DNA of 64,000 bases from Cinnamomum chago (Eukaryota; Streptophyta; Magnoliopsida; Laurales; Lauraceae): NCBI GenBank assembly GCA_038049695.1, contig CP142460.1, forward strand, positions 34,506,001-34,570,000, written 5' to 3'. Below, in pieces: positions 928 through 62,974 of this stretch (position 1 is its first letter; each line of letters starts with the position of its first letter). Made by a program: the position numbers and the translations under genes. The notes below the pieces were generated by a model. It ran no database searches. It was not told where the DNA came from and saw only the letters and a program-made list of their open reading frames with translations.

Positions 928-1064
928 GGTCGACCGAGACACAGGTCTCGGTCGACCGAGACAACTGGAAGTCATTTTTTCCAGAACCTGTTCTGTAGCT
1001 CCAACGGTCAGAAATTTGACCGTTGTGCTTTCTCGGTCGACCGAGACCTGTTTGCCGGTCGACC
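928..1064 (+). promoter_or_regulatory. Palindrome cluster GGTCGACC in S0 5' LTR
   Basis: GGTCGACC occurs at 928, 950, 1035 and 1057, two pairs each exactly 22 bp apart. Three of the four are part of a longer palindrome (CTCGGTCGACCGAG at 947 and 1032). Between the pairs lies an inverted repeat CAACGGTCA/TGACCGTTG around 1001-1024. The cluster ends about 30 bp before a TATA box. CpG-rich palindromes in this LTR position are, as I recall, known for Sireviruses; binding by a dimeric protein is inference. Confidence 0.75.
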
Positions 1065-1092
1065 GAGAACTAGCCGTTGGCAACTTTTTGGC

Positions 1093-1098
1093 TATAAA
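1093..1098 (+). promoter_or_regulatory. TATA box, S0 5' LTR
   Basis: TATAAA in the context GGCTATAAAGTCC, just after the palindrome cluster. Equivalent TATA sequences follow the cluster in S1, S2, S3 and E, which supports it as the LTR promoter. Confidence 0.75.
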
Positions 1099-1896
1099 GT
1101 CCATTCATTTCCAACCTTTTCAAAAGCTTGAAAAACTTGAACCTTTGAGACCATTTTGGAGCCATTGAAAGGGGATGAAGTTGGAAAGGCTAGGAGGTCT
1201 TTAGGAGAGCTAAAGCTTGGGATTAATGAGTTAAACCTCCAAGTAAGCTCTACCTTTATTAATCATAGTTATGTGCTTTGTTTAAACTATTGGTATATGA
1301 TATTTAGCATAATAACTATGATGTGTTGAATCCATTCTTGTTCTAATCTTTGGTCTAATTAAGATTGGATTCTTCACCTTTGTTTTCAATCCAAGTTGTT
1401 AACTTTATTAATCATGCTTAGACAAAATCTTTGTTTTTCTTTCATAGCATGAGTCTTTTACTTGGTTGAAACATTGTTTGTTGTTTTCATTCATTTAAGC
1501 ATTAGTAAAATTAATTTGGTTTTGAAAACAACATGCACATGCATCACATGTTCTAAATTAGTCATTTTCATACAACTTGTTAGTCCTTGATTTTCATGTC
1601 ATAAACAAGTTGAATTTCATACATGTGATTTGCATAAGACTTCAATCAAATCTTTTATGAGCTTTAAACTTTGAATTGCTTTAAGCAATATATTGAGTGA
1701 GCCTTCGTTTTAAACTTGATTGGAGTCATCACACACACACATCATGAACATATACTTTTGCATGCATAGAGTGTTTGTGTGAGTTTGTTTTAAACTTTCA
1801 TATTAGCCTATTCAAGAGGCAATTTCATTTGAGCTTAAATTGTAATCTCTTAGAGTGATCTTTTGGAAAGACATCTTCTTAGAGAAATCTCAATTT

Positions 1897-2068
1897 GTAA
1901 AGGTTATTGCTTAGCCTAAGAAAAGCATCTTGTAAGGTTATTGCTTAGCCTAAGAAAAGCATTTTGTAAAGGTTATTGCTTAGCCTAGAAAAGCACATTG
2001 AGAGGTTGTTGTTTAGCCTAGAAAAACAACATTGTATAGGTTATTGCTTAGCCTTTGAAAAAGCATAA
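1897..2068 (+). repeat. Tandem stem-loop array, S0 5' LTR
   Basis: Five imperfect units of roughly 32-38 bp built on GGTTATTGCTTAGCCT and AAAAGCA. Each unit can fold with TGCTT pairing AAGCA around an AGCCT loop. The fourth unit replaces the stem with GTTGTTT/AAACAAC, a change on both arms that keeps pairing. Confidence 0.8.
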
Positions 2069-2323
2069 ATAGTGGAAATCCGGTGGGGTGTTGGATGCAC
2101 AAGCCGGTAGTGGATGTAGGCACGTTGGCCGAACCACTATAAATATTGTGTTGTGGTGATTGCTATGTGGTGATTGTTTTTGTTTAGCTTCCGCATATTG
2201 TATGGTTAATCATCACATGTGACTAGTTTGCTTTAAAAAACTAAAATTGGTCTATATTGGTCACAATTGTAGCTCACCCTATTCACCCCCCCTCTAGGAT
2301 TAGGATCCTCGTGGACTTTCAAT

Positions 2324-2335
2324 TGGTATCAGAGC
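2324..2335 (+). other. Primer binding site, S0
   Basis: TGGTATCAGAGC, two bases after the 5' LTR end; the standard initiator-Met tRNA primer site of plant copia elements. Confidence 0.92.
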
Positions 2336-5678: not shown

Positions 5679-7597
5679 TGTTAGGAATTTTGTATTTGCA
5701 ATTTGATGGATGCATTTGCATATTGGCATCATTTGAATTCACACTCATGAATTGATTTAAAATTTCTTGAAATCTAGTTGTATACATGCATTGGTTTTTA
5801 GATTTGGAAAAGTTTTTAGTTTATGCATGTTTTGGTCATAAACTTAGATGCATTGAGTTTAGAACCCAAAACTCTTTTGAAAACCAAATTCCTTGTGCAT
5901 TATATTTTGCAAATCATCTTGAGAATTTAGGTTTAAGATTTGCTTACATTCATCTCTTTAAGAATCACTTTTGTATGCATTGTTTTTGGAAAAAGGAGTT
6001 TTTCAAATCAAGCTAGCGTTTGGTTCAAAGTTTCAAATCATTTTAGGCTTTGTGTTTTCCATGTGTTTAAACATCTTAGAATGTCTTAAAACATGTTATT
6101 TAAGCTTGTTTTAGTGGCCAAAAGGTCCCCCAAAGAAATACCTTTGAAATGGCAAAAGTTGCATTTTTTGCAAAAAGGGGGTGTCCCAGCAGTGTGGCCG
6201 GTCGACCGAGACACAGGTCTCGGTCGACCGAGACAACTGGAAGTCATTTTTTCCAGAACCTGTTCTGTAGCTCCAACGGTCAGAAATTTGACCGTTGTGC
6301 TTTCTCGGTCGACCGAGACCTGTTTGCCGGTCGACCGAGAACTAGCCGTTGGCAACTTTTTGGCTATAAAGTCCATTCATTTCCAACCTTTTCAAAAGCT
6401 TGAAAAACTTGAACCTTTGAGACCATTTTGGAGCCATTGAAAGGGGATGAAGTTGGAAAGGCTAGGAGGTCTTTAGGAGAGCTAAAGCTTGGGATTAATG
6501 AGTTAAACCTCCAAGTAAGCTCTACCTTTATTAATCATAGTTATGTGCTTTGTTTAAACTATTGGTATATGATATTTAGCATAATAACTATGATGTGTTG
6601 AATCCATTCTTGTTCTAATCTTTGGTCTAATTAAGATTGGATTCTTCACCTTTGTTTTCAATCCAAGTTGTTAACTTTATTAATCATGCTTAGACAAAAT
6701 CTTTGTTTTTCTTTCATAGCATGAGTCTTTTACTTGGTTGAAACATTGTTTGTTGTTTTCATTCATTTAAGCATTAGTAAAATTAATTTGGTTTTGAAAA
6801 CAACATGCACATGCATCACATGTTCTAAATTAGTCATTTTCATACAACTTGTTAGTCCTTGATTTTCATGTCATAAACAAGTTGAATTTCATACATGTGA
6901 TTTGCATAAGACTTCAATCAAATCTTTTATGAGCTTTAAACTTTGAATTGCTTTAAGCAATATATTGAGTGAGCCTTCGTTTTAAACTTGATTGGAGTCA
7001 TCACACACACACATCATGAACATATACTTTTGCATGCATAGAGTGTTTGTGTGAGTTTGTTTTAAACTTTCATATTAGCCTATTCAAGAGGCAATTTCAT
7101 TTGAGCTTAAATTGTAATCTCTTAGAGTGATCTTTTGGAAAGACATCTTCTTAGAGAAATCTCAATTTGTAAAGGTTATTGCTTAGCCTAAGAAAAGCAT
7201 CTTGTAAGGTTATTGCTTAGCCTAAGAAAAGCATTTTGTAAAGGTCATTGCTTAGCCTAGAAAAGCACATTGAGAGGTTGTTGTTTAGCCTAGAAAAACA
7301 ACATTGTATAGGTTATTGCTTAGCCTTTGAAAAAGCATAAATAGTGGAAATCCGGTGGGGTGTTGGATGCACAAGCCGGTAGTGGATGTAGGCACGTTGG
7401 CCGAACCACTATAAATATTGTGTTGTGGTGATTGCTATGTGGTGATTGTTTTTGTTTAGCTTCCGCATATTGTATGGTTAATCATCACATGTGACTAGTT
7501 TGCTTTAAAAAACTAAAATTGGTCTATATTGGTCACAATTGTAGCTCACCCTATTCACCCCCCCCCCCTCTAGGGTTAGGATCCTCATGGACTTTCA
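5679..7597 (+). repeat. S0 3' LTR
   Basis: 1919 bp, same layout as the 5' LTR: GGTCGACC cluster around 6200-6336, TATAAA at 6365-6370, stem-loop array about 7171-7340. It keeps the 30 bp missing from the 5' copy and has a longer C run near 7558. Confidence 0.93.
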
Positions 7598-8289: not shown

Positions 8290-8878
8290 AATCCCTCCTC
8301 GTCTCCTAGATTAGTGTTCCTCTAGCTCTTGATAAGCTCCATTTGCATTATTGAAAGCTCTATCCTTTTCATTCCTTGTTTGACCCATTTTAGGGTTTTA
8401 TTTGGGGTTTTGCCTTGTAGCTTGGACCATGGTCTTGGAGACTTGTTAGAGCTTGATTTCATTGATTTGAAGACCTAAGGCAAGTAAATGATTCGGTGTT
8501 TTAAGTTTTAAATGGTTTGGTGAAACATTTATGGATTTTCATGTTTTCATTAATATGTTTATGGTTGAAATAAATGCTCTTGATGGAGAACCTTATGAAT
8601 GCATTTATGATCATATAGGAGTGTTGGTTCATAGCAATTAATGTTTCATTGTTTTGTCTTGAATATGTACATTGTGTGAAATGGTTTCCTCTTCTCTTTG
8701 CTTGTATGGGATGTGATATGGATGGAGGAGAATGGGATGGATGTAGTTGGGAATTTGAGGTCATTTGAATGGATATTTATACTCCTTATTTGATGTATGA
8801 AAGTGATTGAAATGAGATTGTAGAAGGAAGAGAAAGAGGACAGCTGAACTGGTCCGGAATCAATTTCTAGACAGTTCG

Positions 8879-9140
8879 TTCGAGCGACCATGACACTTCG
8901 CTCGAGCGACCTGTCCAGGAAAGGGTTCAGAGCATTCCAGTAGCTTGGTCGCTCGAGCGGACCCCTAGTCGCTCGAGCGGACATCCCAGAACTCATTCCA
9001 GAGAGTTGTTCGTTCGAACGCACTTAAATATTCGCTCGACTCAATGAGTTCGTTCGAGCGACCTCAAATTCGCTCGAGCGAACCCACCCAGACCACCATT
9101 CCAGCGAGCGACTCGCTCGAGCGAACCCTCCAGTTCGCTC
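8879..9140 (+). promoter_or_regulatory. Palindrome cluster TCGCTCGAGCGA, element A 5' LTR
   Basis: About ten copies of TCGCTCGAGCGA or one-base variants; spacings match the 3' LTR copy (mostly 18-22 bp). Several variants are TTCGAG or TTCGAA, the C-to-T decay expected of methylated CpG sites. Confidence 0.7.
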
Positions 9141-9873
9141 GAGCGATGCGGTTCGTCTGGCATGGACTATGTTTGGGACAATGTTCAATTGTTTCAATGG
9201 TTGGGTCTATTCTCTGGGAACCCCTCTATATCAAGGAGATTTATTAAGCATTGTATGAGGCCATTCGAGGAAGAAACCATATCACCAAGATTTCACTCGA
9301 AGTTTTGAAACTTCAAGGTGTATAAGGAGCCCGGAATGTCTTCTAACTCAAGGAGTACCAAGTCTTCATTATAATCGACATACGGGATCCCTATATACTA
9401 AATAGATCTTGAAACCAGTATTTTACCCGAAATTGCTATAGTTCATTGTTTCACCTCATTGCAAGATTTACCTTACATGATGTGTTTTCCCGAAGGCATG
9501 ATAGTTACACTAGTAACAGTGATTTGTTCCGAGATATATTACCCGACCTGGAACGAAAGTGTGCCCTTGTGCACCCCGTCCCACTCGTTTATATATTGTA
9601 CTCGATTTACTTGCATAAGTCTCGATTTGATATTTAACCTATGTGTCGGCATCACTAAGCTTGGATACCTTGTCGGTTTGATCCACTGACTTGGAGATCC
9701 CTCTCCCGTCCCGCCAGCTACAGTTTGGATCCAGATACCCGGTCATTTTCGTGGTCCCGTCCCGATACCCGGTTCGCTACCGTGGTCCTGTCCCGTATAT
9801 TTATATTGTATATATGATTTACGTTGATTCTCCTCATCTCGTATGACTGAGATCAACGTCCCGTGATACTATT

Positions 9874-14023: not shown

Positions 14024-14116
14024 CCGATCGATCGGCCGAAGGTCCGATCGATCGGCCCAAAAAGGCTTACAGTTACTGACAGTCCGATCGATCGGCCTGT
14101 AGGTCCGATCGATTGG
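14024..14116 (-). promoter_or_regulatory. Palindrome cluster CCGATCGATCGG in LTR C
   Basis: Copies start at 14024, 14044, 14084 and 14105 (last one with one mismatch), so spacings are 20, 40 and 21 bp. Position is about 1.38-1.47 kb into the LTR, as in F. Confidence 0.75.
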
Positions 14117-16010: not shown

Positions 16011-19000
16011 CGAGGGAAAATTTACGGGGTCAATAGAGTGGATGCAGAGGCAGCGGGTAATGTAGTGGAAGGTACACTTCTTGTTTGTGGGATTAAAGCT
16101 ATGATTTTGTTTGACCCTGGCTCTACACATTCTTTTGTGTCCCATAAATTCTCTAAGTTGATTGATATGCATGCTAGAGAACTTGAGTTCATTTTGACTG
16201 TGGCAACCCCAGTAGGTAAACAAGTTCTTTGTAGAACATTTTACCCTAGTTGCACAGTTCAGATAGGAGAAGTGGTTTTAACCGCAGATCTCATTTCTTT
16301 GGAGATGTTTGATTATGATGTCATCCTAGGGATGGATTGGCTGGCAGGGTACCATGCACTATGGATTGTTTCCATAAGACCCTCACTTTTAAGTTGGTTG
16401 AGACACCAGCAGGAGTGTCGTTTCAGGGAGAGAGGAGGAATCCTTGTGCAGGGTTTGTTTCAGCGTTGAAGGCTGACAGACTTTTGAGAAGTGGTTGTGA
16501 GGCGTATTTAGCATTTATCACGGAGGATAAACGGTCCAAAGGGGTGGAGGAGATCCCAATTATTTGGGAATTCCCGGATGTTTTTCCGGAGGAGATTCCA
16601 AGTTTGCCACCCATGAGAGAGATTGATTTCACCATCGAGTTGTTACCGGGGACTGCCCCGATATCTATTGCACCATATAGAATGGCTCCAACGGAGTTGG
16701 GAGAGTTGAAGACTCAGTTGCAAGAATTGTTGACAAATGTTTTGTGAGACCGAGTGTTTCACCATGGGGAGCTCTAGTCTTGTTTGTTAAGAAGAAGGAT
16801 GGTTCGATGAGAATGTGTATTGATTACAGAAGATTGAATCAAATGACCATCAAGAACAAATAACCATTACCAAGAATAGATGAATTGTTTGACCAGTTGC
16901 AAGGTGCATCATACTTTTCAAAGATTGATTTAAGATCCGGTTACCATCAGCTGAGAGTCAGAGAATCAGATGTGTTGAAAACAGCTTTCCGGACAAGATA
17001 TGGTCACTATGAGTTTCTAGTGATGCCATTTGGGTTGACTAATGCACCGGCAGTGTTCATGGCGTTGATGAACAAGATTTTTGCAGAGTATCTAGATCAG
17101 TTTGTTGTAGTGGTCATAGATGATATTTTGGTGTACTCCAAGACTAGAGAAGAGCATGAAGAGCATTTGAGGATTGCATTGCAACTCTTGAGAGAGAATC
17201 AGCTGTATGCTAAGCCTAACAAGTGTGAATTTTGGCTAGACCAAGTAGCGTTTCTGGGGCACATTATCTCGAAAGAAGGATTGTCAGTGGATCCGTCCAA
17301 GATTGAAGCAGTAGTGAATTGGGAAAGACCGAAGAATGTGACAGAAATCAGGAGTTTTCTGGGATTGGCAAGTTATTATCGAAGGTTTGTGCAAGGTTTT
17401 TCGTCGATTGCGTCACCTTTGACGAAGTTGACAAGGAAAAATGCACCATATGTGTGGACAGAGCAGTGTGAAGAGAGTTTCCAAGAGCTAAAGAAGAGAT
17501 TGACTACAGCACCAGTCCTTACCTTGCCATCCGGGAGCGGCGGTTTTACCATTTTTACCGATGCTTCGAATGTTGGACTTGGTTGTGTGTTGATGCAGGA
17601 AGGAAAAGTGATTGCTTATGGATCTCGGCAGTTGAAAGATCACGAGAAGAACTATGCCACCCATGATTTGGAGTTAGCAGCGGTGGTGTTCGCGTTAAAA
17701 ATGTGGAGACATTACCTCTATGGAGAGCAGTTCGAAGTCCACTCCGACCACCGCAGCTTACAGTATCTGTTTTCGCAGAAGGATCTAAACATGAGGCAGA
17801 GAAGATGGATGGAATATATCAAGGACTATGATTTTCCAATCAAGTACCACCCGGGGAAGGCCAATGTAGTTGCAAATGCCTTGAGTAGGAAATCAGAAGG
17901 CTTGGCAAATCTTAGTGGCACTTGTATTTTTGAGCAATTTGAAGAGTTGAGTTTAGATCTTCAGCCACTGAGGAAGGGTGTTTTGTTGGCTAACATGTCA
18001 GTGTCAGAATCTTCTTTCATTCAGAAGATCAAGGATAGTCAGTTGCAAGATCCAGAGTTGGCCAAGATTTCAGAACATATAGCAGAACGTCCTGATTTTC
18101 GTATTGTGGATGGAGTTTTGTACTACCGTGACCGTTTGTGTGTGCCTAACATTGAAGATTTGAGGAATGATATCATGACCGAGGCTCATAGCACGAGGTA
18201 TTCTATGCATCCAGGCAGCACCAAGATGTATCAGAACTTGAAGGGCAGATTTTGGTGGAACAATATGAAAAGAGAGATTGCAGCGTTTGTCTCCCGCTGC
18301 ATGACTTGTGAGTTGATAAAAGCAGAGCATCACAGGCCTCCAGGGTTGTTACAGCCATTAGAGATCCCGGAGTGGAAATGGGAGCACATTACTATGGACT
18401 TTATTTCGGGATTACCGAGGACTAGCAGAGGCAACGATGCGATATGGGTCATTGTGGACCGTCTCACCAAGTCAGCGCATTTCCTTGCTATGAAGACAGG
18501 GAAGAAGATGCACATGCTACCTTTGGCAGAGTTGTTTGTTAGTGAGATCGTCAGTCGACACGGGCAGCCAGTTTCTATCACATCCGACAGAGACAGCAGA
18601 TTCGTCTCGAGGTTCTGGAAGACATTGCATGAGTCTATGGGTACGAGACTACAGTTTAGCACGGCTTATCACCCGCAGACCGATGGTCAGTCAGAGAGGA
18701 CGATTCAGATTCTTGAGGATATGCTACGTGCTTGTGTGTTAGATTTCAAGACTCAGTGGGATGAGACTCTACCGTTGTGTGAGTTCGCTTACAACAACAG
18801 CTACCATTCGAGCATTGGGATGGCTCCTTTTGAGGCTTTGTATGGCAGGAGGTGTAGGACACCTGTTTGTTGGGAAGAAGTCGGTACTCGCAGTTTCCAT
18901 GGACCGACTATTGTTAGTGAGACCAGCGACAAGATCAAGTTGATTCAAGAACGTCTGAAAGTGTCCCGGAGTAGACAGAAGAGCCATGCAGACTCTCATC

Positions 19001-19479
19001 GCAGGGATTTACAGTTCAAGGAAGGAGATAAGGTTTTCTTGAAAGTGTCACCTACAAGGGGAACATTGAGATTTGGACAGAAGGGCAAGCTATCACGGAG
19101 ATACATTGGACCATATGATATTGTGAGCAAGATCGGTGACGTGGCCTATAGATTGGCCTTACCACCTGAGCTATCTGGTGTACACAACGTCTTCCATGTG
19201 TCTATGTTGAAGAAGTATGTTCCCGATCCTTCGCATGTACTCCGGCATGAACCATTAGAGATCAGAGAGGATGCTACCTATGTTGAGAAACCAGTTGAGA
19301 TCATCGATACCAAGGAACAAGAGTTGAGGACTCGGACTATTCAGTGGGTGAAAGTATTGTGGGAGAATCATGGACCGGAAGAGGCAACGTGGGAATTACG
19401 AGATCAAGTGCAGAAGAAGTACCCACATCTTCTACCAGAGGTGAGTCTTACGTTTCATTTGGAGGACCAAATGCCCTAA
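16011..19479 (+). pseudogene. pol: Element A pol: protease, RT, RNase H, integrase, chromodomain (broken)
   Basis: Domains in order: aspartic protease (LFDPGSTHSFVS near 16110), RT (16600-17340), RNase H ([14 protein letters not shown]; 17540-17760), integrase with HHCC zinc site (about 18180-18310) and DDE core (D near 18397, D near 18585, E near 18695), a GPY module near 19108, and a C-terminal chromodomain ([11 protein letters not shown], to 19440). The chromodomain would steer integration to marked chromatin. Damage: 1-bp deletions near 16353 and 16731, TAA at 16861-16863, and VIDD where RT usually has FIDD or YIDD. From 16864 to the TAA at 19477 the frame is open for about 870 codons. 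Clearly once a complete chromovirus pol, now inactive. Confidence 0.95.
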
Positions 19480-19490: not shown

Positions 19491-20848
19491 TGTAAGACCC
19501 CGACTCGAGTGAACCCGATTAGTGCTGATTAAGTTGCGTTTTAGTGCTAAGCTTGATTAGTGTTCTTGGCTAAGTTGGGTTTGAATTAGCCTTTGTTATA
19601 GTTTGGGGTATTTTGATTTCCATGTGTTAGTGGGACCCTTTGGGGGTTTCCTTTTCATGACATTGCATATGTTTGAGGATTTATTGGAGGTTTCTGCATT
19701 CGTGATTTTGATCCCGCTTTATTGGTATTGTTATTCCCTACAACTTTCATGTTGATCCCGAGTTCGCTTGAGATCCCGAAACCCGATTTCTTGGCCTTGA
19801 GGGCAAAACAGTCATTGCACACCAAATCTGTACCCTAAGCTTGATATTCCCGAAACCCGCAAAACATATACTTTTTGGAAACTAGATATTTCGACGATCA
19901 TTTCTTCCTTCTTCGTCGAATTCATCCGAGGTCCCGAATGTGATGATTTCAGCCATCCAAGTCCCTTTAGTAGTGGGACCCAATTCATTGTTAACAAAAG
20001 GGAAACCATTATCCCATTCACTTCATCTTTCTTGTTCCAGCACAACCTTTTGAACCTAGGGTTTTTCTTGCAACTTCTTCTTCTTCTCCTTGTTTCTTCA
20101 TCCCCAATCCACCCCCAAGCTTTCACCAAGAGGAGATTAGAGGTCATCATCTTCTTCACCTCATTGAGAGCTCTCTTTCAATAGCTTTTGTGGGGAAGCC
20201 TCCATCTCCAAGACCTTCTTTGAGCTCACCATTACCATTAGAGGACCTTGCAAGTAAGTAATCCCTCCTCATCTCCTAGATTAGTGTTCCTCTAGCTCTT
20301 GATAAGCTCCATTTGCATTATTGAAAGCTCTATCCTTTTCATTCCTTGTTTGACCCATTTTAGGGTTTTATTTGGGGTTTTGCCTTGTAGCTTGGACCAT
20401 GGTCTTGGAGACTTGTTAGAGCTTGATTTCATTGATTTGAAGACCTAAGGCAAGTGAATGATTCGGTGTTTTAAGTTTTAAATGGTTTGGTGAAACATTT
20501 ATGGATTTTCATGTTTTCATTAATATGTTTATGGTTGAAATAAATGCTCTTGATGGAGAACCTTATGAATGCATTTATGATCATATAGGAGTGTTGGTTC
20601 ATAGCAATTAATGTTTCATTGTTTTGTCTTGAATATGTACATTGTGTGAAATGGTTTCCTCTTCTCTTTGCTTGTATGGGATGTGATATGGATGGAGGAG
20701 AATGGGATGGATGTAGTTGGGAATTTGAGGTCATTTGAATGGAGATTTATACTCCTTATTTGATGTATGAAAGTGATTGAAATGAGATTGTAGAAGGAAG
20801 AGAAAGAGGACAGCTGAACTGGTCCGGAATCAATTTCTAGACAGTTCG

Positions 20849-21113
20849 CTCGAGCGACCATGACACTTCGCTCGAGCGACCTGTCCAGGAAAGGGTTCGG
20901 AGCATCCCAGTAGCTTGGTCGCTCGAGCGGACCCCTGGTCGCTCGAGCGGACATCCCAGAACTCATTCCAGAGAGTTGTTCGTTCGAACGCACTTAAATA
21001 TTCGCTCGACCCAATGAGTTCGTTCGAGCGACCTCAAATTCGCTCGAGCGAACCCACCCAGACCACCATTCCAGCGAGCGACTCGCTCGAGCGAACCCTC
21101 CAGTTCGCTCGAG
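20849..21113 (+). promoter_or_regulatory. Palindrome cluster TCGCTCGAGCGA, element A 3' LTR
   Basis: CTCGAG cores or one-base variants start at 20849, 20871, 20922, 20942, 20983, 21005, 21023, 21043, 21086 and 21108. Neighbour spacings inside groups are 22, 20, 22, 18, 20 and 22 bp. Confidence 0.75.
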
Positions 21114-21983
21114 CGATGCGGTTCGTCTGGCATGGACTATGTTTGGGACAATGTTCAACTGTTTCAATGGTTGGGTCTATTCTCTGGGAACCCCTCTATA
21201 TCAAGGAGATTTATTAAGCATTGTATGAGGCCATTCGAGGAAGAAACCATATCACCAAGATTTCACTCGAAGTTTTGAAACTTCAAGGTGTATAAGGAGC
21301 CCGGAATGTCTTCTAACTCAAGGAGTACCAAGTCTTCATTATAATCGACATACGGGATCCCCATATACTAAATAGATCTTGAAACCAGTATTTTACCCGA
21401 AATTGCTATAGTTCATTGTTTCACCTCATTGCAAGATTTACCTTACATGATGTGTTTTCCCAAAGGCATGATAGTTACACTAGGAACGAAAGTGTGCCCT
21501 TGTGCACCCCGTCCCACTCGTTTATATATTGTACTCGATTTACTTGCATAAGTCTCGATTTGATATTTAACCTATGTGTCGGCATCACTAAGCTTGGATA
21601 CCTTGTCGGTTTGATCCACCGACTTGGAGATCCCTCTCCCGTCCCGCCAGCTACAGTTTGGATCCCGATACCCGGTCATTTCCGTGGTCCTGTCCCGATA
21701 CCCGGTTCGCTACCGTGGTCCCGTCCCATATATTTATATTGTATATATGATTTACGTTGATTCTCCTCATCTCGTATGACTGAGATCAACGTCCCGTGAT
21801 ACTATTGTCACTTTAGTGACAGAGGACTTAGCTTTATGTGATTGCCATCTCGTGAGTTCCCGACCCCTTGGCTGCCTCATATTTTATGTTGTTGTATCCC
21901 TTCAGGTATTTCCCTTATTATTTTATGTTGTTGTATCCCTTCACTCTCTTGCCAGACCGTCGTGTCTGATTCATTTGCTTTGG

Positions 21984-26045: not shown

Positions 26046-26428
26046 AGCATATCAACGCGTTGATCTCAGTCACACGAGGTAAGGAGAAACGATGAAATAT
26101 ATATATATACATATAATATCCATATACATATACAATAAACCATTGAAGTTTCAGGTTTAAGATTTGTTTGAAGTGAATAAGGATCCCGTATGTCTAAATC
26201 GGTAAAGACTTGGTACTCCTTGAGTTTGGGGACATTCCGGGGTCCTTATATACTTCTACTTTTCAAAAGTTCAAATGAAATCTTTGTGATGTGGTTTCCT
26301 TCCCAAACTGATGTCAAATCATAAGAACGGTTCTTCTCATTACAATAGGGCTCCCAACAAACCTCTCTCAATTATTTAAACATTTCATCCGTGCTCCCAA
26401 AACAGCCCCAGGTGAACAATACCCACCG

Positions 26429-26755
26429 CTCGAGCGGTTTGGAGGTTCGCTCGAGCGGTAAGCTCTCTGGAATGATTGTCTGGGTAGGTTCGCTCGAGCG
26501 GTAAGCTCTCTGGAATGATTGTCTGGGTAGGTTCGCTCGAGCGAAGTTTAGGTCACTCGAGCGAACTCATCCAGTATCAGGTTGGCTCGAGTGAAATTTC
26601 AGTTCGCTCGAACTAACCACTCTTTGGAAAGAGTTCTGGGAGGGTTCGCTCGAGCGTTGAAGGGTTCGCTCGAGCGAACTATCCACCGGAATGGTCCGAA
26701 CCCCTTTCTGGACACTTCGCTCGAGCGACCTATCAAGTCCGCTCGAGCTAACTGT
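26429..26755 (-). promoter_or_regulatory. Palindrome cluster TCGCTCGAGCGA, LTR B
   Basis: CTCGAG cores at 26429, 26450, 26493, 26536, 26556, 26586, 26607 (CTCGAA) and further to 26740. Spacings are 21, 43, 43, 20, 30 and 21 bp. A 43-bp unit (26446-26488) is duplicated in tandem (26489-26531). Confidence 0.75.
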
Positions 26756-35236: not shown

Positions 35237-36979
35237 TGTTAGGGTTTTTGTATTTGCAATTTGATGGATGCATTAACATTTGAGCATCATTTGATTCACA
35301 CACTTGCATTGATTTAGAAAATCTTGAAATCTTGATTTTTACATGCATTGGTTTTTAGACTTGAAGAAATATTGATTTATGCATGATTTGTTTTTAATCA
35401 TGGATGTAATTAGTTTTGAAAAGGAGTTTTAGAAAATCAAGCAAGCCATTGGTTTTATAATTTCGAATCTTTTTCGAATTTTTATGTTTCATGTTTTAAA
35501 ACCCTTAGAATGATTTAAAACGTGTTTTTAAGCTTGATTTAATGGCCCAAAAAATTCCCAACCAAAAATACTTTGAAAAATGGATTTTAGGGAATTTTGG
35601 TCCCAGGCCCAGGTCGACCGAGTAAAAAGCCGTTGGCTCCTTTTTTTTTGAAACGGTCATTTTTATGACCGTTGAAGGCCAAGTCGACCGGGGGTATGGC
35701 AGGTCAACCGGGGAGACGCAGAAACTCAACTTTTGAGTATAAAATGAAGTTCATTCCTTTACCAAAGTTGGAGATTTTGAAGACTCTTTTGAGGTACTTT
35801 GAGACAAAGAAAAGGGGATGAACTAAGAGAGACCAAAGAGTCATTTGGAGAGCTAAAGCTTGGATTAATGAAGTTAAATCTCTAAGTAAGCTCTACCTCT
35901 CTTAATCATAGTTTATATGCTTTGTTTAAGTTATTGGTAAATGATTTTGAGCATGATAACTATGATGTGTTGAATCCATTCTTCTCTTAATCTTTGATCT
36001 AATTAAGATTGGATTCTTCACTTTGTTTTCAATTCAAGTTGTTTTTAAATCTTCCTTAATCATGCTTAGCCTAAATCTTTGATTTCTTTTATATAGCATG
36101 ATTCATTTTCTTGGTTGAAACATTACTTGTTGTTTTCATTCATTTAAACCTTAGTAAAATTTATTTGTTTTTGAAAACAACATTGCACATGCATCACATG
36201 TTCTAAGTTAGTCATCTTCATACAACTTGTGAAGCTCTTGATTTTCATGTCATTAACAAGTTGATTTTCATACATGTGATTTACATTAGACTTCAATCAA
36301 ATCTTTTATGAGCTTTAAACTTTGAATTGCTTTAAGCAATATATTAATTGAGCCTTCTTTTTAAACTTGATTGAAGTTATCACACACACACATCATGAGC
36401 ATACACATTTGCATTCATTTAGTGTTTGTGTGAGTTTGTTATTCACTTTCATACCCGCCTATTTTAGAGGCAAATACATTGAGCTTTAATTGTATCTCTT
36501 AGAGTGTTCTTTTGTGAAGACACCTTCTTAGAGAAATCTTCATTTGTAAAGGATATTGCTTAGCCTAAGAAAAGCATTGTGTAAAGGTTATTGGTTAGCC
36601 TAAGAAAAGCATCTTGTAAAGGTTATTGCTTAGCCCAAAAAAGCACATTATAAAGGTTGTTGTTTAGCCTAGAAAAACAACATTGTAAGGGTTATTGCTT
36701 AGCCTATTGAAAAGCATAAATAGTGGAAATCCGGTGGGGTGATTGGATCACAAGCCGGTAGTGGACGTAGGCATTGAGGCCGAACCACTATAAACCTTTG
36801 TGTTGTGGTGTATGCTTGTGGTGATTGTTTATATTAGCTTTCGCATCTTGTTTGATTAATCATCACATGTGACTAGTTTATGTTAAGGAATTAAAATTTG
36901 TCTTAATTGGTCACATTTTGTAGCTCACCCTATTCACCCACCCCCCCTCCCCTCTAGGGTTAGGATCCCAGGACTTTCA
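35237..36979 (+). mobile_element. S1: Sirevirus-like solo LTR
   Basis: 1743 bp, TGTTAGGGTTT...GGACTTTCA, flanked by ACAGG (35232-35236, 36980-36984). It has decayed GGTCGACC palindromes (35612, 35682, 35702), TATAAAA at 35738-35744 and the stem-loop array at about 36540-36720. Inserted in the Tat-like gag start. Confidence 0.93.
35738..35744 (+). promoter_or_regulatory. TATA box, S1
   Basis: TATAAAA about 30 bp after the last palindrome, as in S0. Confidence 0.7.
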
Positions 36980-37093: not shown

Positions 37094-39292
37094 TGTAAAG
37101 TCCGGGGATCCGAACCCTAGAGGGAGGGTGAATAGGGTGAGCTTCAATTATGACCAATTTTAACCAAATTTAACTTCTTCAACTTAAACTAGTCACAAGT
37201 GATGATTACAAATAAAATGCGGAAGCTTAATAAAAACAATCACCACAAAGCAAACACCATCACACAAGGATTTATAGTGGTTCGGCCTCAATGCCTACAT
37301 CCACTACCGGCTTGTGATCCAACACCCCACCGGATTTCCACTATTTATGTTTTTCAATAGGCTAAGCAATAACCTTTACAATGATGTTTTTCAAGGCTCA
37401 ACATTAACCTTTACATTATGCTTTTCTTAGGCTAAGCAATAACCTCTTCAACCACAAGGTTGGTTATCTCTCTAATTAGTGTCTAACATACACTTGATGG
37501 AGATACAATTTATAGCTCTTAACAATGCCTCTTAATTAGGTGGATATGAAAGTGATAATCTAATACACACATACACTAAATGAATGCAAAGATGTATGGT
37601 CATGAGGTGTGTGTGTGATGTCCTCAATCAATTTGAAAATGAAAGCTCATAAATGTATGCCTAAGGCTTTTGAAAGTTTTAGCTCATAAAACATTTATGA
37701 TTGAGGAAATGTTAATCACATGTTAAAACTAACTTGTAAAAGATATACATTTGTATCCTAAACAAGTTGTGAAAATTCAAAGACCAAAACATGTGAAGCA
37801 TAGGGATGTCAATCAAATCAACAATGTAGCTCAAAACATAAAAAATAGATTTGATTGAAATTAGGGGACAAATCATATGTAATTATAAATGCAACTTGAA
37901 AATGATATACCTATCGAAGTAAGGCAAGTTGTGAAACTTTTAAAACAATAATACATATGATTTGTAAAGTTTGTTGAATCCAAAACATAAGATACATTTG
38001 AAAGAGATTTTCTTATGATGGAAAACAACAACCAAAGATTCAACCAAGTGTATGAATCATGTTACATATAATTTCAAAGATTCTTTCATTGACATGATCT
38101 ACTTAGATTTACCAAATAAAGTACTACTTGGATTGAATCAATGGTGATGCATCCAAAACAATAGATCAATGCAAAACATAAAACATGCTAAGGACACAAC
38201 ACATCATAGTTTAACATGCTACTAAAGATTTACCAAAGATAAAACAAAAACATGAAAACATATGATTTGTAAAGATGTTGAGTCCAAAACATAAGATAGT
38301 TTTGAAAGTGATTTTCTTATGTTGAAAAACAACAACCATAGATTCAACCAAGTATAGGAATCATGTTACATATAATTTCAAAGATTCTTTCATTAACATG
38401 ATCTACTTTGATTTACCAAAAATAAAGTACTACTTGGATTGAATCAAATGGTGATGTATCCAAAACAATAAATCAACTCAAAACATAAAACATGTTAAGG
38501 ACACAACACTTCATACATAGTTTATCATGCTACAAAAGATTTACCAAAAGTAAAACAAAGCATGAAAACATATGATTAAGGAAAGTAGAGCCTACTTGGT
38601 GATTTAACTTCATTAATCCAAGCTTTAGCTTTCCTAATGATCCCCTTCATCCCTTAGTTCATTTCCCTTTGATTTGCCTCAAAACCCCTCAAGGAGGGCC
38701 TTAAAATTCACAACTTTTGGCAAAGGAAAGAACTCATATTTATAGCCAAAATAGCCCAACGGCTAGTCCCCGGTCGACCTGATAACAGGGCCCGGTCGAC
38801 CTGACCTTCACAACGGCTATATTTCTGACTGTTGGAGCTTCAGAACCCAGTCGGCCTGCAGTGTGGCCGGTCGACCGGGTCCCCTGGGCTTGTCGACCGG
38901 CCACACTGCTGGTCGACCCCCTGGGACCAAAATTCCCAAAAATCTCACATTTCAAAGTATTTCTTGGGGGAACTTTTGGCCACTAAATCAAGCTTGAAAA
39001 ACATGTTTTAAAATATTCTAAGGGTTTTTAAAACATGAAACATAGAAAGCCTAAAATGATTTGAAAGATTTAAAACATAGGCTTGCTTGATTTCTAAAAC
39101 TCTTTTCAAAAACAAATGCATCCAAGTTTTAAAAGCAAATCATGCATGAATTGATACTGTTACAAATCTTAAAAGCAATGCATGAATAAATCAAGATTTC
39201 AAGTTTTTTTAAATCAATGCATATGTGTGTAAATCAAATGATGCTTGAATGATTATGCATCCATCAAATTGCAATCTACAAAATTTCTAACA
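37094..39292 (-). mobile_element. S2: Sirevirus-like solo LTR
   Basis: 2199 bp, sense TGTTAGAAATTTTG...GGACTTTACA, flanked by TTATG (37089-37093, 39293-39297). Palindromes GGTCGACC at 38772 and 38794 (22 bp apart), 38869 and 38891 (22), 38911; TATAAATA at 38737-38744; stem-loop array 37347-37460. It has a tandem duplication of about 310 bp (about 37975-38580) shared with S3. Confidence 0.92.
38737..38744 (-). promoter_or_regulatory. TATA box, S2
   Basis: Sense TATAAATA just downstream of the GGTCGACC cluster. Confidence 0.7.
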
Positions 39293-44470: not shown

Positions 44471-45503
44471 AGAGCAATAATTTGGCACTGATCTTAGTCA
44501 CTCGAGGTGGGGAGAAACAGTGGATCTTATAAATACATATACATATACTATACATGACCACAGTAGTGAGCCGGGCATCGGGAACCACAGTAGCAATCTG
44601 CGGTATCGGGACAAGACCACGGTAATAACCGGGTAGCGGGATCCAAACTGCAGCTGGCGGGACAAGAACGGGATCTCCAAGTCGGTGGATCAGACCAACG
44701 AGGTTATCCAAGCTTAGTGGTGCCGACTCATAGGTCAAATAACAAATCGAGACATGTACATGTACAAGTAAATCGAGTGCAAGTAAATAAATGGGCGGGG
44801 CAAGAATGCTCAAAGGCACAACTGTCATTTCACGTCGGGCAATACATTTCGGGACAATGTAAATTCAATGCTTTCGGGAAAATAAGTCATGTAATGTAAG
44901 TCTCGGGAATAAGGAAATACAATGAACTAATACACTTCCTGGTAAAATAGAGATTTCCTTCTTTGTTTAAGGTGAATAGGGGTCCCATATGTCGATTTCG
45001 ATATAGGCTTGGTACTCTTTGAATTTGAAGACATTCTGGGCTCCTTATACACTTTTGCAAATTCAAAACTTCAATGAATCTTTGTGACATGGTTTTCTTC
45101 TCAAACGTGTTAGGAATTTTCTAGATTGCAATTTGATGGATGCATTATCATTCAAAGCATCATTTGATTTACACACTTGCATTGGTTTTAAATAAACTTG
45201 AAATCTTGTTTTATTCATGCATTGCTTTTAAGATTTGTAAAAGTATTGATTTATGCATGATTTGTTTTTTCATCTTGGATGCATTTGTTTTAGAAAAGAG
45301 TTTTCAAGAAATCAAGCAAGCCTTTGTTTTAAAAGTTTTGAAACTTTTTAGGCTTTTTATGTCATGTTTTAAAAACCTTTAAAATCTTTAAAACATGTTT
45401 TCCAAGCTTGATTTAGTGGCCAAAAGGTCCCCCAAAGAAATAACTTTGAAAAGTGCAAAAGTTGGAAATTTTGCAAAAAGGGGGTTGTCCCGGCAGTGTC
45501 GTC

Positions 45504-45630
45504 GGTCGACCGAGAGGCAGGTCTCGGTCGACCGAGACAACTGCAGGCAAAAATTGCCTGGGAGCACCAACGGTCAGAAATATGACCGTTGTGTGTTCTC
45601 GGTCGACCGAGGCCTGTTTCTCGGTCGACC
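45504..45630 (+). promoter_or_regulatory. Palindrome cluster GGTCGACC, S3
   Basis: The clearest copy of the Sirevirus cluster: two pairs with 22-bp spacing around an inverted repeat, ending 28 bp before the TATA box. Confidence 0.78.
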
Positions 45631-45657
45631 GAGAACTAGCCGTTGGCCACTTTTTCC

Positions 45658-53721: not shown

Positions 53722-55578
53722 TGAAAGTCTGTGATCCGAACCCTAGAGGGGGGGTGGATAGGGTGGGCTTCAATTATGACCAATTTTAACCAATTTTAAC
53801 TTCTTTAAATTAAATTAGTCACAAGTGGTGATTAAGTAAATAAATGTGGAAGCTTACAAAAACAATCACCACAAAGCATTCACCATCACACAAGGATTTA
53901 TAGTGGTTCGGCCTCAATGCCTACATCCACTACCGGCTTGTGATCCAATCACCCTACCGGATTTCCACTATTTATGCTTTTCAATAGGCTAAGCAATAAC
54001 CTTTACAATATGCTTTTCAAGGCTAACCAATAACCTCTACACTATGCTTTTCTTAGGCTAAGCAATAACCTCTTCAACCAAAAGGTTGGTTATCTCTCTA
54101 AGTAGTGTTTATAATACACTTGTTAGAGACACAACTAATAGCTCATTACAATGCCTCTTAATTAGGCGGATATGAAAGTGGAAATCTAATTCACATACAC
54201 ACACTATGAATGCAAAGATGAATGCACAATGTGTATGTATGATATTCTCAATCAATTTGAAAATGAAAGCTCATAAATGTATACCAAAGGCTTTTAAAAG
54301 TTTTAGCTCAAAAAGACATTTATGATTGAGGAAATAAAGCTAATCATATGTTAAAAATAACTTGTAAAAGATATACATATGTATTCTAAACAAGTTGTGA
54401 AATTCTAAGAACAAATTAAACATGTGATGCATAGGGATGTCTATCAAATTAACAATGTAGCTCAATATGTGTATGCTATAAGCATAAAACATAAAAATAG
54501 ATTTGATTGAAGTTAGGGGACAAATCATATGTAATTATAAATTCAACTTGAAAATGATATACCTATCAAAGCAAGGCAAGTTGCGAAACTTTAAAACAAA
54601 AGCACATATGATTTGTGAAGTTGTTGAATCCAAAACATAAGATAGATTTGACAGAGATTTTCTTATGATGAAAAACAACAACCAAAGATTCAACCAAGTA
54701 TAGGAATCATGTTACATAAAATTTTTAAGATGTTTTCATTAACATGATTTACTTAGATATACCAATTTAAGCACTACTTGGATTGAATCGAGGAGGTGAT
54801 GCATCCAAAACAATAAATCAATTCAAGACATATGCATGTTAAGGACACAACAAATCATAGTTTATCATGCTAGAAAAGATTTACCAATAATTAAGCAAAG
54901 CATGAAAACATATGATTAAGAAAAGTAAAGCTTACTTAGTGATTTAACTCAATGAAACCAAACTTTAGCTTTCCAAATGATCCATTTCATCCCTTAGCTC
55001 ATTCCCCTTTGATTGGCCTCAAAACACCTCAAGGAGTATCCCTTGGATCCCCATTTTTTCTTTAGGAATGAGCCACAATTTATACCCAAAAACATCCCAA
55101 CGGCTAGTCCCCGGTCGACCGGGTACTCAACGATCATAAATATAGCCGCTTGAAAAACTGCGTTTAGCGGGGGCCAAAGACCGCCGGTAAAAGTGGTTTT
55201 GGCCGCCGGTATAAGTCCTGTTTTCCCAAAAATGTGTTTTTTAAGTAGTTTTGGTTGGGAATTTTTGGGCCATTAAATCAAGCTTGAAAACATGTTTTAA
55301 ATCATTCTAATGGTTTTAAAACATGAAACATAAAAAGCCAAAAATGATTCGAAACTTTAAAACCAATGGCTTGCTTGAAAAAAAATTTCTTTTCAAATTT
55401 AAATGCATCCAACATCTAAAACCAAATATGCATGAAGCATGATTTCTAAAAGTCTTAAAACCAATGCATGTGAAAATCAAGATTTCAAGATATTCTAAAT
55501 CAATGCATGTGTGAAAATCCGAATGATGATTAAAATGTTAATGCATCCATCAAATTGCAAAACACAAAATACCTAACA
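53722..55578 (-). repeat. E 3' LTR
   Basis: 1857 bp. Only one clear GGTCGACC remains (55114-55121); where the others should be there are GCCGCCGGTA repeats (about 55190, 55212). TATAAATT at 55077-55084; stem-loop array 53965-54090. Confidence 0.92.
55077..55084 (-). promoter_or_regulatory. TATA box, E 3' LTR
   Basis: Sense TATAAATT in GGGTATAAATTGTGG; the 5' LTR copy is at 60533-60540. Confidence 0.68.
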
Positions 55579-59189: not shown

Positions 59190-59191
59190 AT

Positions 59192-61034
59192 TGAAAGTCC
59201 GTGATCCGAACCCTAGAGGGGGGGTGAATAGGGTGAGCTTCAATTATGACCAATTTTAACTTCTTTAAATTAAATTAGTCACAAGTGGTGATTAAGTAAA
59301 TAAATGCGGAAGCTTACAAAAACAATCACCACAAAGCATTCACCATCACACAAGGATTTATAGTGGTTCGGCCTCAATGCCTACATCCACTACCGGCTTG
59401 TGATCCAATCACCCTACCGGATTTCCACTATTTATGCTTTTCAATAAGCTAAGCAATAACCTTTACAATATGCTTTTCAAGGCTAACCAATAACCTCTAC
59501 ACTATGCTTTTCTTAGGCTAAGCAATAACCTTTTCAACCAAAAGGTTGGTTATCTCTCTAAGTAGTGTCTATAATACACTTGTTGGAGATACAACTAATA
59601 GCTCATTACAATGCCTCTTAATTAGGCGGATATGAAAGTGGAAATCTAATTCACACACACACACTATGAATGCAAAGATGAATGCACAATGTGTATGTAT
59701 GATATTCTCAATCAATTTGAAAATGAAAGATCATAAATGTATACCAAAGGCTTTTGAAAGTTTTAACTCAAAAAGACATTTATGATTGAGGAAATAATGC
59801 TAATCATATGTTAAAAATAACTTGTAAAAGATATACATATGTATTCTAAACAAGTTGTGAAATTCTAAGAACAAAACATGTGATGCATAGGGATGTCAAT
59901 CAAATTAACAATGTAGCTCAATATGTGTATGCTATAAGCATAAAACATAAAAATAGATTTGATTGAAGTTAGGGGACAAATCATATGTAATTATAAATTC
60001 AACTTGAAAATGATATACCTATCAAAGCAAGGCAAGTTGCGAAACTTTAAAACAAAAGCACATATGATTTGTGAAGTTGTTGAATCCAAAACATAAGATA
60101 GATTTGACAGAGATTTTCTTATGATGAAAAACAACAATCAAAGATTCAACCAAGTATAGGAATCATGTTACATAAAATTTTTAAGATGTTTTCATTAACA
60201 TGATTTACTTAGATATACCAATTTAAGCACTACTTGGATTGAATCGAGGAGGTGATGCATCCAAAACAATAAATCAATTCAAGACATATACATGTTAAGG
60301 ACACAACAAATCATAGTTTATCATGCTAGAAAAGATTTACCAATAATTAAGCAAAGCATGAAAACATATGATTAAGAAAAGTAAAGCTTACTTAGTGATT
60401 TAACTCAATGAAACCAAACTTTAGCTTTCCAAATGATCCATTTCATCCCTTAGCTCATTCCCCTTTGATTGGCCTCAAAACACCTCAAGGAGTATCCCTT
60501 GGATCCCCATTTTTTCTTTAGGAATGAGCCACAATTTATACCCAAAAACATCCCAACGGCTAGTCCCCGGTCGACCGGGTACTCAACGATCATAAATATA
60601 GCCGCTTGAAAAACTGCGTTTAGCGGGGGCCAAAGACCGCCGGTAAAAGTGGTTTTGGCCGCCGGTATAAGTCCTGTTTTCCCAAAAATGTGTTTTTTAA
60701 GTAGTTTTGGTTGGGAATTTTTGGGCCATTAAATCAAGCTTGAAAACATGTTTTAAATCATTCTAATGGTTTTAAAACATGAAACATAAAAAGCCAAAAA
60801 TGATTCAAAACTTTAAAACCAATGGCTTGCTTGAAAAAAAATTTCTTTTCAAATTTAAATGCATCCAACATCTAAAACCAAATATGCATGAAGCATGATT
60901 TCTAAAAGTCTTAAAACCAATGCATGTGAAAATCAAGATTTCAAGATATTCTAAATCAATGCATGTGTGAAAATCCGAATGATGATTAAAATGTTAATGC
61001 ATCCATCAAATTGCAAAACACAAAATACCGAACA
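59192..61034 (-). repeat. E 5' LTR
   Basis: 1843 bp, sense TGTTCGGTATTTTG...GGACTTTCA. Same features as the 3' LTR (GGTCGACC at about 60570; stem-loops 59430-59560). Confidence 0.92.
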
Positions 61035-61940
61035 ATTGGATCGGTACCAAATGATCACTATAATTAATTCGGGCTCAAGGATAATAAGATGTGGATCTAA
61101 TTTGGTGGACAGGTCCAATTGATCCATGGATATAGATGGAGGGGCCTACTTGTGGTAATTGGGAAGTTTAGGGTCTTCATTGTAATATATTCATAAGACT
61201 GGAGTTCAATTGCATTTATATAGTGAAGTTATTTGCAATTAACTGTGGGCCCGGATTACACATGAGATGTGGGGTCGCGTGTCCCAGTTGGAGCCAGCTT
61301 TCTAAGGAATCCCTAGTGGTCCCAACACTAGCCCAAGATATTAGAAAGATACTAATTGTAGTAGAACTCTAAAAGGAAATAGAAAGTTCCTATTTCTATT
61401 TGAAGTGAGACTTCTAATAGTGGTAATAGTGTGAGAACCCGACCCCTAATCTCTTGGATTAGTGTTGTTTTATTTGTGGATTAGTTCTTTTAGTGGGATT
61501 AGTATTTGTTGGGTTGAGTTTGTGAGCTAGAATGGGTTTTCTTCTAGTTTTGGGCTTTTGAGTGCTTTGGTAGCTTGTGGGGCCCTTTGGGGGTTCCCTT
61601 TTCTGCTTTGCTTTTACTTGTGAGATTTTCCTGATTTGTTTCGTATTGTGTTTTTGGCCCGTTGCATTCATCTTGAGGAATCCTACAACTTTCATGTTGG
61701 CCCCGTATACATTTGAGAACCCGAAACCCGATTTCTTGGCCTTGAGGGCAAAACAGTCTTTTCTCACCAAATCTGTACCCAAAACTCGATATTCTCAAAA
61801 TCCGTGAAACATATACTTTTTGGAAACTAAATATTTCGACGATCATTTCTTCCTTCTTCGTCGAATCCATCCGAGGTCCCGAATTAGATGATTTCAGCCA
61901 CCCAAGTTCTTTAAGTTGTGGGACCCAAACCTCACTTGTT

Positions 61941-61948
61941 TATAAAAG
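61941..61948 (+). promoter_or_regulatory. TATA box, LTR F
   Basis: TATAAAAG 511 bp from the LTR start, matching C, H and B. Confidence 0.65.
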
Positions 61949-62198
61949 GAGACCCTTCCCCTTCCTCTTCCATTTTTCATTGTTCCAGCACAACCCTTTT
62001 GAGTCTAGGGTTTTCTTGCTTTCTCCTCTTCTTCTTGCTTCTCCATCTTCAAGCCACACCTAGAGCTCATCAATCAAACAATAGAGATCATCATCTTCTT
62101 CCTCATCTTACAAGCTTTCCATTGGTATCATTTGTGAAGAGAACCCTCCATCACAAGGCTTCCATTGAGCTTACTCTTGCCATTAGAGGACCTTCCAA

Positions 62199-62204
62199 GT
62201 AAGT
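62199..62204 (+). promoter_or_regulatory. Splice-donor-like GTAAGT, LTR F
   Basis: GTAAGT at LTR position about 770. The roughly 250 bp between TATA and this site is CT-rich and has no ATG, like a spliced 5' leader. Confidence 0.42.
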
Positions 62205-62807
62205 GATTCTTCCCATCTCCTAGATTAGTGTTCCTCTAGCTCTTGAGAAGCTCCATTTGTATTATTGAAAGCTCTTTCATTTTCATTCTTTGTGTAACCC
62301 ATTTTAGGGTTGTTTTTGGGGTTTTTTTATTGTAGCTTGGAAGTGAGCTTAAGAAGGGATTAGGAGCTTGGTTTGTGAGATTGGAACCCAAGGCAAGTGG
62401 TTGATTGGATCGTTTTGATTATTAACATGTTTTGTGAAAAAATCTTGATTCATTAATGGTTTTGGTGATTTTAATAGTTGTCTTTAATATGATTAATATT
62501 GATTTCAAGATGTGCTTATTGATGAGTTATTTCTCCCTTGTTAATCTCTTGGAAATGTATGTATCATAGTGTCAAGATTTCAAATGGTTTCACATGAATG
62601 AGTTTTCTCCACTTTTGAGATTTATTGTGAATGGAAAGGATGGAAATGGAGGAACTTGAAATGAGGAGCTCTTTAGCTCATTTTAATGTCTTGGAAACAT
62701 GTGTTTAAGTCTCCTTATGTATAATTCTATGTGATTGATTATATGTTGGAAGGAAAGGAAACAAAAAGGAAAACAATCAAGTTCCCGGACCTGCACTGCG
62801 CCCAGGT

Positions 62808-62974
62808 CCGATCGATCGGACCTACAGGCCGATCGATCGGCCTGTCTTTTAACAGTAAGGCTTTTTGGGCCGATCGATCGGACCCTGTACATTTCTGGTA
62901 CATTTCAGTAAGGCTTTTTGGCCGATCGATCGGCCCAAAAAGCCTTACTGTTAAAAGACAGGCCGATCGATCGG
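62808..62974 (+). promoter_or_regulatory. Palindrome cluster and 53-bp inverted repeat, LTR F
   Basis: CCGATCGATCGG occurs exactly at 62808, 62829, 62870, 62922 and 62963, spaced 21, 41, 52 and 41 bp. The segments 62829-62881 and 62922-62974 are perfect inverted repeats of 53 bp with a 40-bp spacer. Confidence 0.85.

Follow-up and report, generated by a model that had tools for sequence, protein, structure and literature searches.

Arrays of a single palindromic decamer occupy the long terminal repeats (LTRs) of both copia and gypsy retrotransposons in a window of 64,000 nucleotides from Cinnamomum chago (contig CP142460.1, positions 34,506,001 to 34,570,000). Self-comparison and LTR ends show this 64-kb window to be a nest of plant LTR retrotransposons, comprising Sirevirus-like elements, designated S0, S1, S2, S3 and S5, and gypsy-type LTRs, designated A, B, C, D, F and H. 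The decamer, CG-X-TCGA-X'-CG (CGNTCGANCG), lies behind three CpG-containing cores and varies at X, which is mainly G in the Sirevirus-like LTRs, C in A, B and D, and A in C and F, and thus differs by lineage as a block. Its copies mostly stand at multiples of about 10.4 bp, a helical register that is probable although not proven. The arrays are a real and specific feature of these LTRs, and suggest that both groups of elements are tuned to a similar DNA-binding protein.

The excess of the decamer was measured against 60 dinucleotide-preserving shuffles of the window, which served as the null for all motif counts. CGNTCGANCG has 51 matches, 48 of them palindromic, compared to a mean of 0.05 (maximum 1) in the shuffles, and all 51 fall inside LTRs when checked against the self-comparison and LTR ends. 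The pattern CG..CG..CG occurs 53 times (0.53 in shuffles), while perfect 10-bp palindromes number 147 against 71.4 per shuffle; the arrays noted in an initial annotation of this DNA therefore exceed chance by a wide margin. The commonest palindromic 10-mers are CGCTCGAGCG (23 copies), CGGTCGACCG (15) and CGATCGATCG (8), with the next two at 5 each. Counting one LTR per element, so that S0, A and S5 each lose their second copy, leaves 37 of the 51 sites; of these, 16 have C at X, 10 have G, eight have A, one has T and two are mixed. Among these 37 sites, dyad symmetry reaches past the core, with offset 6 paired in 27 as compared to the 17.2 that column composition predicts. Common descent links A, B and D, as it does C and F and, separately, all S elements, which gives three array types of separate origin. 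The annotation had described the cores as differing and family-specific, but three of the four that it named prove to be one motif with one symmetric base changed.

Register was assessed on adjacent intervals of at most 120 bp, taken from one LTR per element. In the strict set, restricted to sites with all eight fixed letters (n=27), 12 intervals measure 20-23 bp, and the others are 40, 40, 41, 41, 41, 43, 43, 43, 51, 51, 52, 75, 84, 85 and 113 bp. A mechanical rule, which takes the local best site with at least seven of eight fixed letters (n=38), yields intervals of 20-22, 40-43, 51-52, 75, 85 and 103 bp. The best period is 10.3-10.5 bp, with a Rayleigh z of 23.5 at 10.5 bp versus 14.0 at 21 bp for these 38 intervals. 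Only 12 of the 27 strict intervals are thus of 20-23 bp, and the rule becomes one of multiples of about 10.4 bp, or one turn, in place of the 20-23 bp or its multiples first proposed. Taken over the length of each array, R at 10.4 bp is 0.84 for B (10 sites over 313 bp), 0.97 for F, 0.89 for D and 0.83 for C; one C site lying beyond the array, at LTR position 2818, was kept in the adjacent-interval analysis and dropped from this one. A jitter null, in which each interval is shifted by no more than 5 bp and any period from 10.2 to 10.8 bp is allowed, was applied to the eight arrays supplied (S1 and S5 have too few sites), and gives p values of 0.0005 for B, F and S3 together, 0.0005 for A, F and S0, 0.0002 for B and F, 0.0037 for S3 and 0.010 for S0. 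Other perfect palindromes in the window, with intervals above 120 or below 15 bp left out, are unphased, both at arm 4 (100 adjacent intervals, z 1.3, three in the 20-23 bp range) and at arm 5 (13 intervals, z 0.1). The phased sites have a motif skeleton in common, and palindromes with other sequences are unphased, so the annotation's spacing rule independent of motif sequence finds no support.

Similar evidence comes from comparison of homologous LTRs. The spacing between retained sites has changed by 10 bp (S0 versus S3 and S2), 11 bp (A versus B), 10 bp (B versus D) and 32 bp (C versus F). Once inserted units of 41 and 43 bp are added, these four changes fit 10.5 bp (p 0.002) and not 21 bp (p 0.52). 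Net indels of at least 8 bp in 11 LTR pairs fall within 1 bp of whole turns in 8 of 13 cases in arrays, versus 6 of 26 outside them (up to 120 bp), in a tally that was counted by hand from lists and uses overlapping pairs. Array borders were likewise set by hand for this and for both CpG analyses given below. When the intervals are merged to six classes, which, like the four spacing changes, were hand-picked from the interval lists, p is 0.54 at 21 bp, and 0.009 at 10.5 bp once the TATA distance is added; a random-interval simulation on the classes gives 0.009 at 10.5 bp and 0.026 with the period free between 10 and 11 bp. A pure 21-bp rule was accordingly rejected, being weaker than 10.5 bp for intervals and for classes, although the four spacing changes alone fit both.

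Among the Sirevirus-like LTRs, the S0 5' array (927..1065, forward strand) has four CGGTCGACCG sites, at 927, 949, 1034 and 1056, and is copied in the 3' LTR (6199..6337, forward). The S3 array (45503..45631, forward) also has four CGGTCGACCG sites and folds as one nested inverted repeat. The S2 array (38771..38919, reverse) holds five sites with six to eight of the eight fixed letters, only that at 38868 being an exact decamer; S1 (35611..35710, forward) retains three decayed sites with six or seven; and S5 (55112..55121, reverse) has a lone remaining CGGTCGACCG, 33 bp from the TATA box, with a copy in the second LTR at 60568-60577. In the gypsy-type LTRs, the A 5' array (8877..9145, forward; 3' copy at 20847..21115, forward) contains nine sites with all eight fixed letters, mostly CGCTCGAGCG (X=C), with one X=T and two mixed. 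The B array (26427..26749, reverse) has ten sites with at least seven letters and includes an exact 43-bp tandem duplication (26443-26528), and the D array (34497..34766, reverse) has seven sites at the same threshold, three of them exact. The CGATCGATCG type (X=A) is represented by C (14025..14115, reverse), with four sites, three exact, and by F (62809..62973, forward), with five. The F array also contains an inverted self-repeat (62823-62982), with stretches absent from its relative C, which is possibly a record of strand switching at palindromes in reverse transcription.

The sites listed in the annotation are recovered to varying degrees. All of those in S0 (four), S3 (four) and F (two) are exact, as are three of four in each of S2 and C, where the fourth matches at 7/8 and 11/12 letters, respectively. 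Those in A and B lie at coordinates 3 bp lower than those given, and are full 12/12 copies in four of eight cases in A and one of four in B, the others matching at 9-11 of 12 letters. The listing was incomplete, with, for instance, B 26491, 26647, 26667 and 26718 and F 62871, 62923 and 62964 left unlisted. Three of the four H sites are exact and the fourth matches at 10/12, but the core in question, GCGGTTAGCCGC, lacks the motif and falls short of perfect palindromy (5/6 pairs, by eye), and H was rejected as an array member. Two copies of this one LTR family each carry a 23-bp doublet of GCGGTTAGCCGC (47468-47502 and 52990-53024), unrelated to the main motif.

In all five Sirevirus lineages, TATAAA lies 32-33 bp past the last site, even in S5 with its one site (in S1 the last site keeps six of eight letters). 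For instance, the TATA box of the S0 5' LTR (1093..1098, forward) is 33 bp past the centre of the last site. Among gypsy-type LTRs, B, C and F, and likewise H, conserve a TATA-like box around LTR position 510-523, whereas that of A is degraded. The arrays start 859 bp (B), 876 bp (C) and 872 bp (F) downstream of this box, which in F (TTTATAAAAGG) is at 61941..61946 on the forward strand. CpG content sets the arrays apart in both groups: the observed/expected ratio lies between 1.1 and 1.5 in seven arrays (S0, S3, A, B, C, D and F), whereas the remainder of each of these LTRs has 0.17-0.73, with S0 at 1.34 versus 0.21 and S3 at 1.27 versus 0.17. In S0, A and S5, for which two LTRs could be compared, CpG transitions number 1 of 57 in arrays versus 14 of 96 outside (p 0.010). 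These counts are small, but would fit low methylation at the arrays.

We read the arrays as cis-regulatory clusters of a dyad-symmetric site, CGNTCGANCG, for a dimeric DNA-binding protein on one DNA face, a reading to which we give somewhat better than even chances. Dimer sites on one face, as the annotation had suggested, fit the dyad symmetry, the 10.4-bp register and the lack of register in 100 intervals between other palindromes; protein binding, cooperativity, the host origin of the protein and protection from methylation are what we infer from the sequence. A dimeric protein, which most likely belongs to the host, would read CGNTCGANCG as double-stranded DNA, and since sites are whole helical turns apart, dimers would align on one face and could act together. 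In Sirevirus LTRs, the array may serve as an upstream activating block, with its last site about three turns from the TATA box, and in gypsy-type LTRs as an intragenic enhancer or leader element, downstream of the only conserved TATA-like box found. The difference in X between lineages (G, C or A) may arise because the half-site preference has shifted, or because separate members of a single protein family are involved. More tentative, and in our estimation doubtful, is the larger proposal that one host protein family recognises CGNTCGANCG and that two unrelated superfamilies converged on arrays in obligatory register, perhaps keeping the LTR free of CpG methylation; if true, this would be a shared cis-acting route for escaping silencing. 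The common skeleton and register rule supply one probe sequence and one simple mutation (a half versus a full turn), by which the binding protein could be found and its role, whether in driving expression or in blocking methylation, could be probed.

Several observations weigh against this reading. Placement of the array relative to the TATA box differs, being upstream in Sireviruses and downstream in gypsy-type LTRs, so the two groups position it differently, unless gypsy transcription in fact starts at another place. The CpG-transition contrast is not significant for element A alone (p 0.17). As for register, the A array has an R of 0.67 at 10.4 bp and fits 10.25 bp better, and the 113-bp interval is off register. 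The Sirevirus share of the register is weak, because its arrays, with three or four sites each, have R values of 0.48-0.67 at 10.4 bp, and they fit 10.7-10.8 bp. A scan of B, F and S3 from 7 to 30 bp finds 10.4 bp best (z 12.75), but 7.1 bp (11.3) and 22.5 bp (10.2) are near. With intervals merged to six classes, the phasing p is only 0.02 at 10.5 bp, a class-level value attained by 6.6% of the runs of a simple two-step duplication simulation. Taken by themselves, the four spacing changes agree equally with 21 bp (p 0.008) and 10.5 bp (p 0.014), and array indels of 13, 24, 51, 12 and 48 bp are off register, some of them where sites were lost. In addition, all six array stretches that were folded as RNA (136-150 bases, one each from S0, S3, B, A, C and F, those of A and B being part of the array) fold strongly, with z from -5.9 to -14.9 and none of 200 shuffles as stable in each.

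This last result bears on a function at the RNA level, in which palindromes of the transcript would pair into miRNA-like hairpins that feed small-RNA production, or would serve in RNA dimerisation or packaging. The S3 array does approach a single long nested stem, and the palindrome region of maize Sireviruses is, in the accounts available to us, a small-RNA hotspot (PMC5311732, PMC10760457). Identical palindromes always fold well, however, so the fold z-score is not independent evidence; pairing predicts neither the fixed central TCGA nor a spacing of 10.4 bp as in B-DNA, and the window contains no Rfam match at or above the gathering score of its family. We consider an RNA function unlikely. 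Strand switching at palindromes probably shaped the arrays. That it explains them entirely, with palindromes promoting strand switching and duplication during reverse transcription and units being copied and inverted with arms matched in the absence of selection, we judge slightly less likely than an RNA function. Such a neutral origin draws on the inverted self-repeat of F, the 43-bp duplication of B, the symmetry found at offset 6 and the 6.6% of duplication runs that reproduce the class-level phasing. It draws as well on S0 and S3, which fold as nested inverted repeats, so that a single event may account for both of their 22-bp spacings. Yet duplication in 21-bp steps predicts a period of 21 bp at least as strong as 10.5 bp, the reverse of the Rayleigh values (14.0 against 23.5) seen for the 38 intervals, and leaves unexplained both the decamer skeleton common to unrelated superfamilies and the constant TATA distance.

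Two further explanations appear improbable, to about the same degree. Were the arrays a chromatin signal, GC-rich units one turn apart would set the rotational position of nucleosomes or mark an unmethylated island, in keeping with a register near 10.4 bp that extends across as much as 313 bp and with the low CpG decay in arrays. Neither dyad symmetry nor a fixed TCGA centre would be required for this, and the nucleosome-type pattern of opposite-phase A/T dinucleotides outside the cores is not seen in B (p 0.33) or F (p 0.96), while that in A (p 0.03) shares the phase of the sites instead of being offset by half a turn. Alternatively, one lineage may have gained its array from the other through LTR recombination followed by one-base drift. 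The common decamer skeleton and the contact afforded by heavy nesting are in favor of such a transfer, as is the commonness of the maize Sirevirus palindrome in Helitrons (PMC10760457), which, as far as that report was available, indicates that such motifs can appear in other classes. Self-comparison, however, returns no Sirevirus-gypsy array match of at least 150 bp (E 1e-5) around the motif, and X differs as a block by lineage, as does position relative to the TATA box.

Part of this system has been described. The annotation gave CpG palindromes in Sirevirus LTRs as known, correctly, since they were published as RM boxes, which in the accessible text of that report are palindromes found in 13 Sireviruses, in CpG islands just upstream of the TATA box (Bousios et al. 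2010, PMC2829016), with a CGG-CCG core and a place in the upper half of the LTR. The consensus given there for a grapevine (Vitis) Sirevirus, CGGTCGACCG, is identical to the S0 and S3 site, and the Sirevirus half of our finding is therefore already known. A CGG-CCG palindrome upstream of the TATA box (CGGTCGACCG) is found in S0, S2, S3 and S5, with S1 having decayed sites only, and the arrays of S0 and S3 resemble a CpG island by their CpG observed/expected ratio. The gypsy arrays of A, B and D and of C and F fall outside the RM definition, as the array follows the TATA-like box (seen in B, C and F) and, X being C or A, the decamers lack CGG-CCG; they resemble RM boxes but are not RM boxes by definition. 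The portions of the 2010 paper available to us compare Ty1/copia elements and call RM boxes Sirevirus-specific and absent from classic elements; they leave the role of the box open, with no common binding factor found at that time, and use the word 'helical' once, in a reference title, such that we take register as not discussed there.

A parallel for the gypsy half is offered by the CpG islands at the 5' end of Del/Tekay LTRs (Cruz et al. 2014, PMC4029996), which, like the arrays here, form a CpG-rich block of variable length in the 5' half of a long gypsy LTR. According to the part of that paper accessible to us, these occur in monocot groups and are absent from eudicot group I and monocot group II, and its text is free of the words palindrom, tandem repeat, inverted repeat, helical and TCGA. 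Maize Sireviruses, which are said in the available text to occupy 21% of the maize genome (PMC10760457), have a palindrome-rich cis region capable of forming hairpins, similar to the arrays here (Bousios et al. 2016, known to us through excerpts of PMC5311732 and PMC10760457), although the maize palindrome, CACCGGACNNNGTCCGGTG, differs from our decamer (PMC10760457). The same source, a 2023 report, describes this palindrome, in the text that we had, as the most abundant motif in structured Helitron regions, being present in 10.7% of them; one palindrome in unrelated element classes thus has a precedent. PMC6911290, where accessible, deals with palindromes at insertion sites and not with arrays, and no word beginning with palindrom occurs in PMC3599292 or PMC9073684. 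No report of a gypsy or chromovirus counterpart or of helical spacing was found in a limited literature search that covered subscription journals thinly and in part gave the best 15 of 16 and of 1,328 papers, and within that search the skeleton common to copia and gypsy LTRs, as well as the register, appear new.

The Sirevirus-like LTRs, delimited by self-comparison and their ends, span 437-2321 and 5679-7597 (S0), 35237-36980 (S1), 37097-39292 (S2), 45108-47319 (S3), and 53722-55580 and 59192-61036 (S5). S0 is nested within the 5' LTR of element A, with a target duplication of GGCTA. The terminal polypurine tract (PPT), then AT, then the TG of the LTR start, an arrangement by which Sireviruses are defined, is present in S0, where the tract is AGGGGGAGAT with TG next at 5679, and in S5, where the Sirevirus-defining tract AGGGGGAG is followed by ATTG. 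No PPT was found in the 10 bases preceding S1, S2 or S3, as expected if these are solo or 5' LTRs. S0 is short, with about 3.4 kb between its LTRs, and is probably non-autonomous; its longest frame, of 458 amino acids, is gag-like by eye (zinc knuckle) and has four homologue matches but no Pfam match. The boundaries of the A, B, C, D and F LTRs are approximate, with the true start of A lying to the left of the S0 insertion, and C is probably a solo LTR. The Del/Tekay label for these five elements is taken from the initial annotation and their long LTRs. Element A, the sole one of the five in which domain order was tested, has an open reading frame (16864..19479, forward) encoding reverse transcriptase, RNase H, integrase and SH3_Tf2-1, in Ty3/gypsy order. 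This frame has no match to the chromodomain model PF00385 at E 0.001, and a few homologues carry PF00385 among 120 listed of 7964 matches. Within these 120, identities reach 91%, and the best named match, from Persea americana, stands at 72%, which points tentatively to a magnoliid host. When a 312-residue piece of the frame was compared to viral contigs, 16 stretches were returned and none confirmed. A scan of viral contigs for decamer pairs returned 39 stretches, of which 16 have at least five motifs, at a GC content of 0.58-0.73 and none below 0.5; as this is GC-rich viral DNA, the matches were read as chance and rejected.

The U3 region of the Sirevirus LTRs has a second type of motif. MYB3R cell-cycle factors target the mitosis-specific activator (MSA) consensus YCYAACGGYYA. 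With at most one mismatch, MSA-like motifs number 15 in the window compared to 2.1 per shuffle (maximum 7 in 60), and 14 of the 15 are in Sirevirus U3, which suggests that Sirevirus expression is tied to cell division. They are located at 1000-1081, 6272-6353, 35666-35676, 38755-38819, 45566-45647, 55096-55106 and 60552-60562. In S0, three motifs with the AACGG core (1000..1081), at 1000 on the forward strand and at 1017 and 1071 on the reverse, stand between and after the palindromes. S0 and S3 each have an inverted pair placed between palindromes, and a single motif stands beside the TATA box in S0, S2, S3 and S5. Nothing relevant was found among the few papers listed for retrotransposon LTRs bearing MSA motifs. 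S0 and S3 also contain 18-bp palindromes (GTCTCGGTCGACCGAGAC; 945-962 and 45521-45538) with GTCTC and GAGAC inverted and 8 bp apart, an arrangement that resembles a paired auxin response element.

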